From Acidimicrobiaceae bacterium (GTDB taxonomy: Bacteria > Actinomycetota > Acidimicrobiia > Acidimicrobiales > UBA8592): a stretch of DNA of 64,000 nt. Location: positions 1 through 64,000 of the forward strand of contig JAHECR010000012.1 of the NCBI GenBank assembly GCA_024641655.1, given 5' to 3'. Under the pieces are notes generated by a model that saw nothing but the letters and a program-made list of their open reading frames with translations, made no database searches and was not told the DNA's origin. This document shows positions 19,744 to 25,095 of this stretch, one piece after another; the first letter of the stretch is position 1, and every line of letters starts with the position of its first letter. The translations under genes and the position numbers were made by a program.

Positions 19744-20424
19744 GTGGGAACACAGATCCTGACGGTCGAAGACGACGAGCGCATACGGACTGCCGTTCGA
19801 CTCGCGCTCGAGGACGAGGGTTGGGACGTGACCGAGGCGCGCAACGGCGAGGAGGCGTTGGAGGCATTCAAACGCTCCCCCGCCGATGTCGTGCTCATCG
19901 ACATCATGCTGCCCGGCATCGACGGTTTCGAAGTCTGTCGAGCGATACGGCGCAACAGCGACGTGCCGATCGTCATGGTCACCGCACGCGACGACACCCA
20001 CGACGTCGTCGCCGGGCTCGAAGCGGGCGCCGACGACTACCTCACGAAACCCTTCGCGCCCAAAGAGCTCAGCGCCCGCATCCGGGCCCTGCTGCGACGC
20101 GTCCGTACCACCTCACCGGCCATGAGCCAGATGGAGTTCGGCGACCTCGAGATCATCCCCGACCAGGGGCTGGTGCTCTTGAAGGGCGAGGAAATCCACC
20201 TGACCAAGACCGAGTTCCGGCTCCTGGTCGAGCTCGCGTCCAGCCCCGGTCGCGTCTTCAGCCGCGAGGTGCTCCTGGAACGAGTGTGGGGCTACGGCTA
20301 CTTCGGCGACGGACGACTCGTCGACGTGCACATCCGCCGGTTGCGCACGAAGATCGAGCCCGACCCGGCCAAACCGCGGTACGTGATGACCGTACGCGGC
20401 CTCGGCTACAAGCTGCAGACCTAG
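19744..20424 (+). CDS. mtrA: OmpR-type response regulator, MtrA-like
   Basis: This 226-residue response regulator has a receiver domain with the acidic pocket VEDD, phospho-acceptor Asp53 (VVLIDIMLPG), Thr (VTARD) and Lys (YLTKPF), and a C-terminal winged helix (GEEIHLTKTEFRLLVELASSPGRVFSREVLLERVWG). The closest named relative by sequence and by the following kinase and lipoprotein is MtrA, an essential regulator of division and wall genes in actinobacteria. Start is GTG 19744-19746 with GAAAGG five bases upstream. A TAGTCT -10-like box lies at 19701-19706. Confidence 0.88.
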   Translation: MGTQILTVEDDERIRTAVRLALEDEGWDVTEARNGEEALEAFKRSPADVVLIDIMLPGIDGFEVCRAIRRNSDVPIVMVTARDDTHDVVAGLEAGADDYLTKPFAPKELSARIRALLRRVRTTSPAMSQMEFGDLEIIPDQGLVLLKGEEIHLTKTEFRLLVELASSPGRVFSREVLLERVWGYGYFGDGRLVDVHIRRLRTKIEPDPAKPRYVMTVRGLGYKLQT

Positions 20425-20428
20425 TCAC

Positions 20429-21838
20429 ATGGTCAAACCCACCCGAGGCAAGGTTCGTCTCCGGGCTCGCCTGACGCTTGCCTTCGGTCTGGGAGCGCTG
20501 CTCCTGTCGACCCTGCTCGCAGCGGTCACCTACGGGCTGGTGCGCGAAACTCTCCTGGAGAGTCGCGAGAGCAACGCGTTCAGCGTGGCGCTCAACAATG
20601 CGACCCAAGTGCAGCGTCGCGTCAAGGATGGCGACGACGAGGCCACCGTTCGAGCCGTGTTGACCAGCTTCCGGGGATTCGCGTCGTCGACCTCGGTGCT
20701 CAGGGTCGGAGTGAACTGGTACTCGGCGAACCCGGAGTCGTTCGTGGCGGCCAACATCAAGACCGAGCTCGCCGATGCCGTGATGGACCCCAGCGAAGGC
20801 CCTGCGCAGATGCGCTACCGCCTCCCCAACAATCAACCGTTCCTCGTCATCGGCTTGCCCATCGAGGGTCTCACGCGAACGTCCTATTTCGAGGCGGTTC
20901 CCCTCGACGACATCGAGGACACCCTGCGATCGGTCGGCCTGGCGCTTCTCGGGGCCGCGGCGGTCAGCACCTTGGCCGGCGTCGGAACCGGCGCGTGGGC
21001 GGCGCGCCGGGTGCTGCTCCCTCTCGAAGAAGTCAGCCAGACCGCCGAGGCCATCGCTGCGGGCGACCTCACCGCCCGCCTCGAGGTCGGCCAGGACCGC
21101 GACCTGGCGCCGATCGCGGCGTCGTTCAACGAGATGGCAGCCAACCTGGAGGAACGCATCCAGCGGGACGCGCAGTTCGCCTCCAACGTCTCCCATGAAC
21201 TGCGCTCACCGCTGATGACGATCATGGCATCGGTCGAGGTTCTCAAGGGCCGCGCCAACGAGCTGAGCGAGAAGGGCCAGACAGCGCTCGGCCTGCTCGA
21301 CGGCGATCTCGAGCGCTTCCGGCAGCTCGTCGAGGACCTCCTGGAGATCTCCCGCTACGACACCGCCGGCGGCGCGCTCGACCTCGATCACCTCTTGCTG
21401 ATCGAGTTCGTCACCCGGGTGGCCGAGCAAATCGACCACGCCGGCGTCCCCGTCGTCTACGAACCTGGCATCGAGGACCTCGTTGTCGAGGTCGACAAGC
21501 GCCGCCTCGCGCGCGTGGTCACGAACCTCCTGCAGAACGCGCGCAATTACGCCGGTGGGGCCACCGACATCGAGGTACGGCAGGTCGGCACCGGTATCGA
21601 GATCGCGGTACAAGACGCGGGCCCCGGAGTCCCGCCGTCAGAGCGCCAAGCGATCTTCGGGCGCTTCAGCCGCGGAGCCGAAGGTGGCCGCCGCGGGTAC
21701 GGAACGGGCACCGGCCTCGGCCTCGCCCTCGTCGCCGAGCACGTCCGGATGCACGGAGGTCGGGTACGCGTCGACGATCGACCCGACGGCAACCCGGGCG
21801 CGTGCTTCGTGGTGGAGCTGCCAGGAGTGGTGCGATGA
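20429..21838 (+). CDS. mtrB: Sensor histidine kinase, MtrB-like
   Basis: This 469-residue kinase has two membrane spans (about 15-36 and 166-188) flanking a roughly 130-residue extracytoplasmic sensor, a HAMP linker, a dimerisation/phosphotransfer helix with His256 in FASNVSHELRSPLMTI, and an ATPase domain with N box NLLQNARNYAG, G1 DAGPGVPP, F box IFGRFSRG and G2 GTGTGLGLALV. It is the partner of the MtrA-like regulator four bases upstream, and its stop overlaps the lipoprotein ATG. Gene order and domain layout match mtrA-mtrB-lpqB of actinobacteria. Confidence 0.9.
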   Translation: MVKPTRGKVRLRARLTLAFGLGALLLSTLLAAVTYGLVRETLLESRESNAFSVALNNATQVQRRVKDGDDEATVRAVLTSFRGFASSTSVLRVGVNWYSANPESFVAANIKTELADAVMDPSEGPAQMRYRLPNNQPFLVIGLPIEGLTRTSYFEAVPLDDIEDTLRSVGLALLGAAAVSTLAGVGTGAWAARRVLLPLEEVSQTAEAIAAGDLTARLEVGQDRDLAPIAASFNEMAANLEERIQRDAQFASNVSHELRSPLMTIMASVEVLKGRANELSEKGQTALGLLDGDLERFRQLVEDLLEISRYDTAGGALDLDHLLLIEFVTRVAEQIDHAGVPVVYEPGIEDLVVEVDKRRLARVVTNLLQNARNYAGGATDIEVRQVGTGIEIAVQDAGPGVPPSERQAIFGRFSRGAEGGRRGYGTGTGLGLALVAEHVRMHGGRVRVDDRPDGNPGACFVVELPGVVR

Positions 21839-22503
21839 ACAAGAGCCGCGTGCACCCTCGTCACTTGGCGCTGCTCATCCTGGCCGTGATTGCCAGTGTC
21901 GTGGCCTCGTGCGGCATACCAGAGGATCGCGAGCCGCGAGCCATCTCGCGCGCCGTCGAGACGGCGACGCCTGCGCCCACCCCGACCACCGCGGCAGACG
22001 ATGAGCTTCCGCAGGTCGAGATCTTCCTCCTCGATGCCAACGGGCGCGTCCACACCGTGACGAGACAGGTGGCCACGCTCAAGATCTCCGATGTGCTGCC
22101 CCAGCTCACACTGGACCCGACGCCGGAGGAGGTCGCCGAGAACCTGACGAGCGCGGTGCCGAAACAGATGACGCTCATCGAGAACGACAGCTTCCCGTCG
22201 CTCAAGGAAGGGCTTGCAGCCGTGAACCTCGAGCCTGGGTCACTGGAGACCCTCGAAGGTGGTGAGCGCTTCGCTGCCCTCGCCCAGATCGTCTGGACGC
22301 TCACCAACTACGCGAACGTCGACACGGTCCAGATCCTGATCGATGGCGCCCCGATCACCTGGCTGACCCCCGACGGGGGCGAGCAGCCCAAGCTCACTGA
22401 AGGAGACTTCAGGAGCTTCGACCCCACCTATGTGGCACCCACGGCCACCCCGGCACCCACCAGCGCGCCCACGCCGAAACCTGCACCCACGGCCACTTCC
22501 TGA
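21835..22503 (+). CDS. GerMN-domain lipoprotein, short LpqB-like
   Basis: The 222-residue lipoprotein has a signal peptide and lipobox VVASC (Cys26), a GerMN domain (about 55-185, with EIFLLDANGRVHTVTRQV and ALAQIVWTLTNYANVDTVQILIDGAP) and a Thr/Pro/Ala-rich tail. It occupies the lpqB position: LpqB in mycobacteria is a lipoprotein of nearly 600 residues with the same GerMN domain plus a large beta-propeller that modulates MtrB. Here the propeller is missing and the protein ends in a low-complexity tail. ATG 21835-21837 overlaps the kinase stop. Confidence 0.88.
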   Translation: MNKSRVHPRHLALLILAVIASVVASCGIPEDREPRAISRAVETATPAPTPTTAADDELPQVEIFLLDANGRVHTVTRQVATLKISDVLPQLTLDPTPEEVAENLTSAVPKQMTLIENDSFPSLKEGLAAVNLEPGSLETLEGGERFAALAQIVWTLTNYANVDTVQILIDGAPITWLTPDGGEQPKLTEGDFRSFDPTYVAPTATPAPTSAPTPKPAPTATS

Positions 22504-22543: not shown

Positions 22544-23575
22544 TCAGGAGAAGAACGTCTTGGCCTGCGCCCAGAGCTCGGCGTCGACGATCTTGAGCGA
22601 GGCCACCGCCTCGGCGATGGGCACGGTGACGATGTGGTTGCACTGGAGGGCAACCATCTGACCCCAGGCCTCGTCATGGACAGCGTCGATGGCACCCACG
22701 CCGTAGCGGGAGCACAGGAGGCGGTCGAACGGGCTCGGGGACCCGCCGCGTTGGACGTGGCCGAGCACGGTGACCCGCGTCTCGTAGCCCGTGCGCCGCT
22801 CGATCTCCTGCGCGACGACGTTGGCGATGCCCCCGAGGCGTTGATGGCCGTATTGGTCGATCTCGGGCTCGGGAAGCTCGAGCGTGCCTGCCTTCGGGAC
22901 CGCACCCTCGGCCACCACGACCACCGAAGCATACCGCCCATGTTCGTGGCGACGGCTGATGGCTGCGGCAACCTGCTCGATGTCGAAGGGTTCTTCGGGG
23001 ATGAGGGTGAGCGTCGCGCCTCCGGCGATCCCGGCCCACACCGCGATGTGGCCGACGTGTCGACCCATGACTTCCACGACCATGACCCGGTCGTGGGACT
23101 CTGCGGTGGTGTGGAGTCGGTCGATCGCCTCCGTGGCGATGTCGACGGCGGTCGCGAAGCCGAAGGTCATCTCGGTGGCGCCGATGTCGTTGTCGATCGT
23201 CTTGGGCACACCAACGACGTTGAGGACGCCCTCCTGCCAGATGCGCATGCCGCACGACAGCGTTCCCTCACCCCCGATGACGATCATCGCGTCCAGGGCG
23301 AGATCTGCCGCTGTCGCACGTACCCGCTCGACGCCGTCGTCGTACATGTACGGATTGATGCGCGTCGTGCCGAGGATCGTGCCCCCGCGCGTGAGCGCAC
23401 CGCGCATGTTCTCCACGGTGAGCTCGGTGTATTCGTGGTCCATGACCCCGCGCCAGCCGTCGCTGAATCCGATGATCACATCGCCGTGATGTCGCTCGCC
23501 CTTGCGCACGATCGCTCGTAGGACCGCGTTCAAACCAGGACAGTCTCCGCCACCGGTGAGCACTCCGACACGCAT
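22544..23575 (-). CDS. pfkA: 6-phosphofructokinase
   Basis: PfkA-family enzyme of 343 residues committing fructose-6-phosphate to glycolysis. GGGDCPGLNAVLRAIV (phosphate loop), GGEGTLSCG, PKTIDNDIGATEMTFGFATAVD (catalytic Asp) and MGRHVGHIAVWAGIAGGAT are present. In this group the residue after GGE decides the phosphoryl donor: Gly usually goes with ATP and Asp with pyrophosphate. Gly is found here together with Lys in PKTIDND, as in actinobacterial ATP-dependent enzymes. ATG 23573-23575 is seven bases after a TAACCT box, so the mRNA is probably leaderless. It is divergent from glpK by 23 bases. Confidence 0.93.
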   Translation of the reverse strand: MRVGVLTGGGDCPGLNAVLRAIVRKGERHHGDVIIGFSDGWRGVMDHEYTELTVENMRGALTRGGTILGTTRINPYMYDDGVERVRATAADLALDAMIVIGGEGTLSCGMRIWQEGVLNVVGVPKTIDNDIGATEMTFGFATAVDIATEAIDRLHTTAESHDRVMVVEVMGRHVGHIAVWAGIAGGATLTLIPEEPFDIEQVAAAISRRHEHGRYASVVVVAEGAVPKAGTLELPEPEIDQYGHQRLGGIANVVAQEIERRTGYETRVTVLGHVQRGGSPSPFDRLLCSRYGVGAIDAVHDEAWGQMVALQCNHIVTVPIAEAVASLKIVDAELWAQAKTFFS

Positions 23576-23582
23576 GCCCCGA

Positions 23583-23592
23583 AGGTTACAGT
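23583..23592. promoter_or_regulatory. Overlapping divergent -10 boxes for pfkA and glpK
   Basis: On the minus strand TAACCT (23588-23583) is followed by seven bases and the pfkA ATG; on the plus strand TACAGT (23587-23592) is followed by six bases and the glpK ATG. Neither gene has a Shine-Dalgarno site and the entire spacer is 23 bases, so both mRNAs would be leaderless and the two polymerases would compete for one site. Confidence 0.6.
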
Positions 23593-23598
23593 CCGACC

Positions 23599-25095
23599 AT
23601 GGCCCCTCCTTCCACCCTTGTGCTCGCCGTCGACGCAGGGACGACGGGGGTGCGAACCGTGGCGGTCGATGAGTCCGGGACGATCGTCGCCCATGCGTAC
23701 CGTGAGTTCCCGCAGTACTTTCCCAGTCCCGGCAGGGTCGAGCACGACGCCGAGGAGATCTGGGCGGCCACCCAGGCCACTCTCGCCGAGGTCTGCGCGG
23801 CGATGCCGTCGACCCCTGCAGCGTTGGGCATCGCCAACCAGCGCGAGACGATCGTCGCCTGGTCCCGCAGCACCTCGCGTCCGCTGGCACGAGCCGTGGT
23901 CTGGCAGGACCGCCGCACCGCAGCCCGGTGTGACCAGCTGGAAGCGCTCGGGGCTCTCCCGCTGGTTCGTTCGGTGACCGGCCTGGTGCTCGATCCGTAC
24001 TTCTCGGCGTCGAAGATCGAATGGCTGTTCACCTCCGGTGGCCTCGCTCCCACAGCGGACGTCGCTGTCGGCACCATCGATTCCTGGCTCGTTCACAAGC
24101 TGACTGGTGGCGCCTCGCACGTCACCGATGCCACGAACGCCAGCCGGACGATGCTGTTCGATCTCGACCGACTCGCCTGGTCTCCGGAGCTGTGTGGGCT
24201 CTTCGGGGTGCCTGCCCACGTCCTGCCGGAGGTGCGCCCATCGAGCGGCGACTTCGGTGTCACGACCAGCGAGGCGGCCTGTGGTCCTGGGATCGCCATC
24301 ACCGGGGTCGCCGGCGATCAACATGCGGCGCTGTTCGGGCAGGCCTGCTTCGCGCCCGGCGACGCGAAGAGCACCTACGGCACCGGCTCGTTCGTGCTCA
24401 TGAACGTCGGCAGGGCGCGGCCCGAACCCGTCGACGGACTCCTGACGACGCTCGCCTGGGTGCTCGACAGCCCCAGCGGGCCCCAGCCCACCTACGCCCT
24501 CGAAGGGGCGATCTTCATCACCGGCGCGGCAGTGCAGTGGTTACGTGACGGTCTGGGCATGATCGACGACGCTTCCGAGCTCGAGCCCCTCGCCCGCCAG
24601 TGCACCAGCAGCGGCGGGGTCTACTTCGTGCCCGCGTTCACGGGGCTGGGAAGCCCGTGGTGGGACCCGTACGCCCGCGGGACACTGATCGGTCTGACGC
24701 GTGGGACCGGCCGACCCGAGATCGCTCGGGCGACGATCGAGGCCATGGCCCACCAGACCCGCGATGTGGTCGACGCCATGGCGGGTGCCTCGGGTCAGCG
24801 TCTCAACCGGTTACGCGTCGACGGAGGCGCCTCGGCGAACACGCTGTTGCTCGAGTTGCAGGCCGATCAGCTCGGGGTACCGGTGCAGCGGCCCGTGACG
24901 CTGGAGACGACCGCGCTCGGCGCGGCCTATCTCGCCGGTTTCGCCGGCGGGGTCTGGGGCTCGCTCGATGACATAACCGGCCGCTGGCAGCTCGACGTCG
25001 AGGTCGGGCCCAGCAGCGCCCGCGCCGACGTCGACGCCGCGCACGCCGGCTGGCTTCGGGCGCTGGAGCGGTCCCGTCACTGGGCGCAGGAGTAG
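23599..25095 (+). CDS. glpK: Glycerol kinase
   Basis: The 498-residue FGGY-family kinase phosphorylates glycerol to glycerol-3-phosphate. The N-terminal phosphate loop LAVDAGTTGVRTVAV, the glycerol-binding WQDRRT region, DPYFSASKIEWLF, the C-terminal FGGY signature around YGTGSFVLMN and FTGLGSPWWDPYARGTLIGLTRGT match GlpK better than other FGGY sugar kinases. ATG 23599-23601 lies 23 bases from the divergent pfkA start. It is convergent with the ACT-domain gene 16 bases further on. No glycerol transporter or glycerol-3-phosphate dehydrogenase gene is adjacent. Confidence 0.92.
   Translation: MAPPSTLVLAVDAGTTGVRTVAVDESGTIVAHAYREFPQYFPSPGRVEHDAEEIWAATQATLAEVCAAMPSTPAALGIANQRETIVAWSRSTSRPLARAVVWQDRRTAARCDQLEALGALPLVRSVTGLVLDPYFSASKIEWLFTSGGLAPTADVAVGTIDSWLVHKLTGGASHVTDATNASRTMLFDLDRLAWSPELCGLFGVPAHVLPEVRPSSGDFGVTTSEAACGPGIAITGVAGDQHAALFGQACFAPGDAKSTYGTGSFVLMNVGRARPEPVDGLLTTLAWVLDSPSGPQPTYALEGAIFITGAAVQWLRDGLGMIDDASELEPLARQCTSSGGVYFVPAFTGLGSPWWDPYARGTLIGLTRGTGRPEIARATIEAMAHQTRDVVDAMAGASGQRLNRLRVDGGASANTLLLELQADQLGVPVQRPVTLETTALGAAYLAGFAGGVWGSLDDITGRWQLDVEVGPSSARADVDAAHAGWLRALERSRHWAQE

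Follow-up and report, generated by a model that had tools for sequence, protein, structure and literature searches.

We found that the gene directly behind the mtrAB-like pair of an Acidimicrobiaceae bacterium encodes a protein of a sister family of LpqB that is widespread and in which it is unexceptional. Comparison of relatives indicates that in the sister clade to which it belongs, the last part kept is the membrane-proximal peptide, not the GerMN domain. Based on the overlap of its start with the kinase stop, its lipobox, and an arrangement shared by Acidimicrobiia and several families of actinomycetes, we read the lipoprotein as the putative third part of a three-component signaling system, sister of MtrAB-LpqB, in which the anchor peptide would set kinase activity and GerMN would be a replaceable input; we give this reading about even credence. 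The features lie in a window of 64,000 nucleotides, the whole stretch of DNA that was analyzed (Table 1).

Table 1. Features of the regulator-kinase-lipoprotein locus in the window
Feature	Coordinates	Strand	Basis
Response regulator, MtrA-like (OmpR/PhoB type); GTG start inferred from frame	19744..20424	+	NCBIfam, Response_reg, Trans_reg_C
Sensor histidine kinase, MtrB-like: TM, ~130-residue extracytoplasmic sensor, TM, HAMP, HisKA, HATPase	20429..21838	+	NCBIfam; HAMP, HisKA, HATPase_c; AlphaFold2
GerMN lipoprotein without propeller, 222 aa	21835..22503	+	Translation, Pfam, AlphaFold2, Foldseek
Lipoprotein signal peptide, residues 1-25; lipobox VAS before Cys26	21835..21909	+	Translation; model helix 8-24
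Lipid-anchored motif CGIPEDREPRAI, residues 26-37	21910..21945	+	Pattern counts in relatives; retained where relatives lose GerMN
Flexible Pro/Thr/Ala-rich linker, residues 38-63	21946..22023	+	Sequence; pLDDT 65-73
GerMN (Germane) domain, residues 64-174	22024..22356	+	Pfam PF10646, 48.5 bits; HMM search of genome
Pro/Thr/Ala tail, residues 201-222	22435..22500	+	Sequence

The lipoprotein gene is a stop-free frame of 222 residues whose ATG (21835-21837) overlaps the TGA of the kinase (21836-21838) in an ATGA arrangement. Its PF10646 score of 48.5 bits exceeds the cut-off of 23. Germane was the sole domain in the Pfam scan, and the Gmad1 propeller (PF10647) was absent from the protein. The AlphaFold2 model (mean pLDDT, 88.3) has a complete GerMN fold, found here together with a lipobox, and its best solved structural match is 6gz8, the first GerMN domain of Bacillus subtilis GerM (Foldseek E value, 5.9e-7). 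A convergent phosphofructokinase frame (22544-23890, minus strand) begins only ~40 bases from the end of the gene, leaving no room for a propeller remnant. Truncation by a frameshift was rejected on the basis of the intact frame, the complete fold, and relatives of equal length at the same position in many genomes; the window lipoprotein is a complete short protein. The initial annotation, which had described a GerMN lipoprotein without a propeller at the lpqB position and had made its reading depend on the lack of a frameshift, was upheld on both points.

Its reading depended as well on the lack of a separate full LpqB, and PF10646 and PF10647 searches of the bacterium's own assembly (92.78% complete, 5.72% contamination, a caveat on any absence) recovered none. 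PF10646 matched at the window locus and on contig C40 only. PF10647 gave nothing at an E value of ≤1e-5 and just a 10-bit fragment on contig C17 (E value, 0.92), which reached 23 bits when summed with its neighbors in frame. The C40 protein is a GerMN lipoprotein with a Gmad2-like domain and without a propeller. It lies at L003:5630-6541 on the minus strand, its Gmad2 match falls below the cut-off, and the frame directly ahead of it resembles a NodB-type polysaccharide deacetylase lipoprotein, a name that comes from reading the sequence.

The name mtrAB needs caution here. The best NCBIfam models were MtrAB_MtrA (NF040689) for the regulator, at 276.8 bits (cut-off, 300; scanned from position 19750), and MtrAB_MtrB (NF040691) for the kinase, at 228.9 bits (cut-off, 450), yet both proteins score below these equivalog cut-offs. 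The lipoprotein reached 28.2 bits on the LpqB model NF010141 (cut-off, 602), matching model positions 210-310 of 584. The AlphaFold2 model of the kinase (mean pLDDT, 82.2) had a WalK-YycH model as its top structural match. Like MtrAB-LpqB of mycobacteria, Corynebacterium, and Streptomyces, the locus has the order regulator-kinase-lipoprotein, an overlapping start, a lipobox, GerMN, and MtrA and MtrB as best models. Unlike it, the lipoprotein has neither the N-terminal domain nor the Gmad1 propeller, all three proteins score below the family cut-offs, and the system belongs to a sister clade rather than the same clade. The mtrA-mtrB-lipoprotein order that had been proposed is thus kept in the window, but strict MtrAB identity is not, given the sub-cut-off scores and the sister-clade placement.

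A search with P0001 gave matches in 62 of the 198 class genomes (E value, ≤0.001). Among the 30 loci kept from it (L005 to L034, including the window), 27 had a kinase match adjoining the GerMN gene; at the threshold used, no kinase match was found at L019 or L031, and L021 had the kinase only. MtrB-like kinases were present in 127 of the 198 class genomes (E value, ≤1e-50) and in 207 of 296 genomes of the phylum (E value, ≤1e-55). A GerMN frame followed the kinase at 78 of 101 loci, namely, the window and 100 others (L035 to L134) that were hand-picked from kinase match lists with long matches favored, so that these shares are not natural frequencies. Eighty further loci came from named contigs, mostly of Acidimicrobiia, Ilumatobacteraceae, and Microthrix and also of Geodermatophilus, Blastococcus, Kribbella, Amycolatopsis, and Pseudonocardia, and later fetches were added. 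From 241 loci, we dropped 12 (L107, L143, L145, L151, L152, L154, L155, L156, L157, L173, L200, and L264) because of a contig-end cut, a second kinase, or repetition of another locus. The remaining 229 loci, which still include some repeats (L082 and L135, for example, are one genome), comprised 146 short forms, 14 long LpqB forms, 12 middle-length forms, 24 lipopeptides, and 33 with nothing recognized; the long, middle, and short labels derive from length and from a GerMN HMM built from the same loci. After its frame was read, L215 was moved by hand from the last group to the lipopeptides, bringing these to 25. Contamination or a one-genome oddity was rejected as the origin of the window gene, since the short form is spread across the class. 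Ten listed genomes (~1 Mb) of genus g41 in family f22 had no MtrB-like match at an E value of ≤1e-50 and zero to three candidates, and the MtrB-like system seems to be absent there.

Pfam was run on the window protein, the C40 copy, and 18 of these loci. At the position behind the kinase, we found GerMN alone (L110, L118, L120, and L037), GerMN with Gmad2 (L036, L043, L111, and L113), GerMN with SH3_3 (L038), and GerMN with Gmad1 (L095 and L100); a deeper long form, L108, had GerMN with a PD40 repeat, not Gmad1, and L122 had no Pfam match. In family f30 of the same class, the lipoproteins behind the MtrB-like kinases of L038, L041, and L049 carry ~290 residues in addition to GerMN, and the SH3_3 domain of L038 is a possible cell wall-binding input module. 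A 376-residue GerMN lipoprotein (L204, Blastococcus sp. MG754426) falls inside the short-form clade.

Our main tree, built from 57 regulator-kinase pairs, split systems with GerMN from those without it (support, 100/100). The long LpqB form was one clade (100/100), pointing to a single origin. Window-type systems and the second MtrAB-like systems of Geodermatophilaceae, Kribbella, and Pseudonocardiaceae formed one clade (100/100), and the Gmad2/SH3 and Streptomyces-like short forms formed another (100/97). An earlier kinase tree also placed kinases followed by a GerMN lipoprotein on one side (99, starred), within which a few rows lacked GerMN. Uniting the window-type and LpqB-type systems as one clade was rejected, at a cost of 130.6 log-likelihood units and a p-AU of 4.35e-7, a value that is optimistic because the tested grouping was chosen after the 196-row kinase tree had been seen; near-copies and distant GerMN-less kinases had been removed from that tree by hand. 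Two sampled actinomycete genomes hold a propeller-less system beside a long LpqB: G384 has a 608-residue long LpqB (L098) and a 200-residue protein of the window's clade (L260), and G422 has a 611-residue long LpqB (L096) and a more distant short form of the Streptomyces-like clade (L268). Because of the tree and these dual systems, we regard the window system not as MtrAB-LpqB itself but as its sister, and the description of its lipoprotein as a simply cut-down LpqB does not hold.

Two further observations concern other rows. In family f2, L040, L050, L053, L054, L055, and L068 represent a further paralogous system in which the regulator lies on the opposite strand and the short GerMN lipoprotein behind the kinase lacks the anchor motif. 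Four metagenome-assembled records, L176 and L205 (both titled Bifidobacterium breve) and L212 and L225 (both titled Acidobacteria), have mtrAB-like loci that are acidimicrobial on the tree, and their titles are probably wrong.

The 196-row kinase tree shows four independent branches in which GerMN has disappeared: acidimicrobial genera g6 and g21, the pair L215/L225, and Pseudonocardiaceae. There, the frame behind the kinase encodes 45 to 92 residues, consisting of a signal peptide, a lipobox, and ~20 to 70 further residues, with GerMN absent. In all four lipopeptide genomes tested (two each of g6 and g21), PF10646 had no match anywhere in the genome at an E value of ≤1. Nineteen of 21 genomes of g6 had the kinase match, and the 17 loci readable past the kinase end divided into 11 with a lipopeptide and 6 without a frame. 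Matches were found in 19 of 60 sampled Amycolatopsis genomes; 13 of the 23 loci read in this set had a lipopeptide (L194 and L288 are identical in sequence), and 10 had none. The second MtrAB-like systems of Geodermatophilus, Blastococcus, Kribbella, Amycolatopsis, and Pseudonocardia, which belong to the window's clade, have a short GerMN lipoprotein or a lipopeptide behind the kinase, and those sampled from Pseudonocardiaceae differ from the window in that GerMN is gone and just a lipid-anchored peptide, or nothing, remains. The hope that the retained part would tell what touches MtrB now leads away from GerMN, since this domain was discarded four times and the N-terminal motif with its lipid anchor was not.

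Lipopeptides retain an open frame, the lipobox, and, mostly, the ATGA overlap. The H-box is kept in every kinase of a lipopeptide or gene-less locus but that of L153, where the kinase is cut, and a regulator match occurs in the same locus except at L153 (contig edge), L240, and L241. Sensor-domain length is unchanged whether or not a lipoprotein remains and therefore gives no independent sign of contact. The pN/pS ratio of the sensor was 0.40 where the gene was wholly lost and 0.12 to 0.25 with a lipopeptide, a comparison that we set aside because the GerMN-bearing groups (0.34 to 0.95) look saturated. Several relatives have lost the gene entirely and kept the kinase, so the gene is dispensable there and a stub could be a stage of decay.

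After the signal peptide, the short-form alignment has the consensus CGVPxDxxPRxI (motif consensus, CG[IV]PxDxxPRxI). Pattern M2 of this motif matched 93 of 116 main-clade short forms and 24/24 lipopeptides, and pattern M1 matched 79/116 and 23/24, respectively. M1, used as control pattern C, matched none of 20 control lipoproteins, nor did the stricter pattern D, and the looser patterns A and B matched five and one; these controls were drawn from 260 kb, and some are probably false. A first control set was discarded, as it held just 4 non-GerMN sequences. Among 13 further non-GerMN sequences, the one motif match was the Actinophytocola lipopeptide itself. Because the lipopeptides descend from motif-bearing short forms, sharing of the motif was to be expected at first, and the informative point is its retention. 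M2 was found in 3 of 14 long LpqB forms and 1 of 11 middle forms. It was absent from one paralogous branch (19 rows), from the short forms of other classes (5), and from the Streptomyces-like group (7). The motif is not common to the whole superfamily, which counts against the mechanism proposed below.

Ratios of pN/pS, which here rest on short segments and related pairs, show the lipopeptide to be under purifying selection in both branches tested. In genus g6, the ratio for the mature lipopeptide was 0.24 in one subgroup, 0.14 in a second, and 0.17 between the two; the signal peptide had 0.51 and 0.33 and the kinase 0.08 to 0.12. In Amycolatopsis, the motif had a ratio of 0.195 and the next 12 residues one of 0.32, compared with 1.09 in the signal core and, from aligned codons, 0.30 in the kinase. 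Of four GerMN-bearing groups, three had stronger constraint on the motif than on GerMN (0.47 versus 0.63, 0 versus 0.27, and 0.35 versus 0.66), and the opposite held in the fourth (0.71 versus 0.58).

In the mechanism that we propose, the lipidated N terminus would tether the lipoprotein next to the kinase on the outer side of the membrane. The conserved 12-residue segment that follows the lipid cysteine would adjoin membrane-proximal parts of the sensor and set kinase activity, and we infer that this peptide contacts the kinase; judging from the model, the ~130-residue sensor between two transmembrane helices could receive the motif. GerMN, on its flexible linker, would act as a replaceable input module and feed in an envelope signal, probably cell wall state. 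Other branches carry Gmad2, SH3, or a beta-propeller in addition, and some have dropped GerMN and kept the lipid-anchored peptide only. A more general version, which we advance tentatively and with less than even credence, takes the 12-residue lipid-anchored peptide as the working core in this sister clade, with GerMN, Gmad2, SH3, and the propeller exchangeable around it, and the lone lipopeptides of Amycolatopsis, Pseudonocardia, and three acidimicrobial branches as built-in kinase ligands. If true, histidine kinases would have a class of lipopeptide regulators whose genes lie in the kinase operon itself.

The history of the propeller bears on two other readings. The split between the long form and the propeller-less forms is basal in the GerMN clade (96/91 in the 57-pair tree; 92/88, unstarred, in a second tree), which makes propeller gain and propeller loss equally parsimonious. 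Phylogeny had been expected to tell an ancestral module from a loss; it returned the single origin of the long form without choosing between the two. We lean toward a gain in the long form rather than losses elsewhere, as several branches, and organisms beyond the phylum, have short GerMN lipoproteins. The short form might accordingly be the original MtrAB-LpqB module, to which the N-terminal domain and propeller were added later, with GerMN making the contact to MtrB. The single origin of the long form, the position of kinases without a GerMN lipoprotein outside the clade (100/100), and the presence of short GerMN lipoproteins in several deep branches and in another phylum (Clostridioides difficile CD630_36690) fit this account, which we nevertheless find rather doubtful: with the long and propeller-less forms as basal sister groups, one gain costs the same as one loss, and contact through GerMN conflicts with the repeated loss of that domain.

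Conversely, a long LpqB ancestor may have lost its N-terminal domain and propeller in the window lineage, the lipopeptides then being a functionless next step of decay. Further reduction is indeed seen inside the window clade, from short form to lipopeptide to nothing, but the lipopeptides keep their frame, lipobox, and mostly the ATGA overlap, and their mature part is under purifying selection. Moreover, of the 198 class genomes, just 3 had a Gmad1 match at an E value of ≤1e-5, each with a weak score (27 to 31 bits), leaving little trace of a lost propeller, and we consider such reduction unlikely. It is more improbable still that GerMN lipoproteins were recruited several times behind different OmpR-type systems and resemble LpqB in position only. 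The window protein's mere 28 bits on the LpqB model and the occurrence of GerMN proteins away from kinases, such as the C40 copy, would suit independent recruitment; it is weakened by the tree, where GerMN-followed kinases lie on one side (99, starred, and 100/100), as a single recruitment predicts.

The proposed action of the lipoprotein on its kinase is analogous to that of YycH/YycI, membrane-tethered partners that tune WalK. MgrB with PhoQ and CseA with CseBC are likewise small or membrane-tethered partners that tune sensor kinases, and LpqB is a well-known regulator of mycobacterial cell division. To our knowledge, none of YycH/YycI, MgrB, and CseA is a lipid-anchored peptide that arose from a lipoprotein with a domain. 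GerM of B. subtilis resembles the window protein in domain fold (6gz8 and 6gzb), and we know of no kinase partner for it. One source describes GerM, unlike the window protein, as a tandem GerMN protein with a role in sporulation and C. difficile CD630_36690 as a short GerMN lipoprotein of 191 residues (PMC3841139). LpqB is described as conserved across actinobacteria in another (PMC10714768), and a physical or functional interaction of the lipoprotein with the kinase is published for LpqB only (PMC3353115, PMC13189361, and PMC5487470). In the openly readable literature searched on LpqB and GerMN, we met no report of an LpqB lacking the propeller or of lipopeptides encoded after MtrB, no account of which LpqB part acts on MtrB, and no name for the window-type sister family.

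The series from long form through GerMN with added modules, GerMN alone, and lipid-anchored peptide to nothing amounts to a natural deletion experiment, and this erosion singles out the 12-residue segment as the first part to test. Labels of mtrAB-lpqB in Acidimicrobiia probably name the sister system, and annotation can easily overlook lipoprotein genes of very small size that follow a kinase. In genus g310, which includes Amycolatopsis (L289 to L296, L305, and L306; L297, L298, and L307), most lipopeptides hold a conserved SRQVQ near their end. At g310 loci without a lipopeptide, TCGTCAG-like repeats, ~11 bases apart in L298, lie just behind the kinase and may be a candidate binding site for the regulator.
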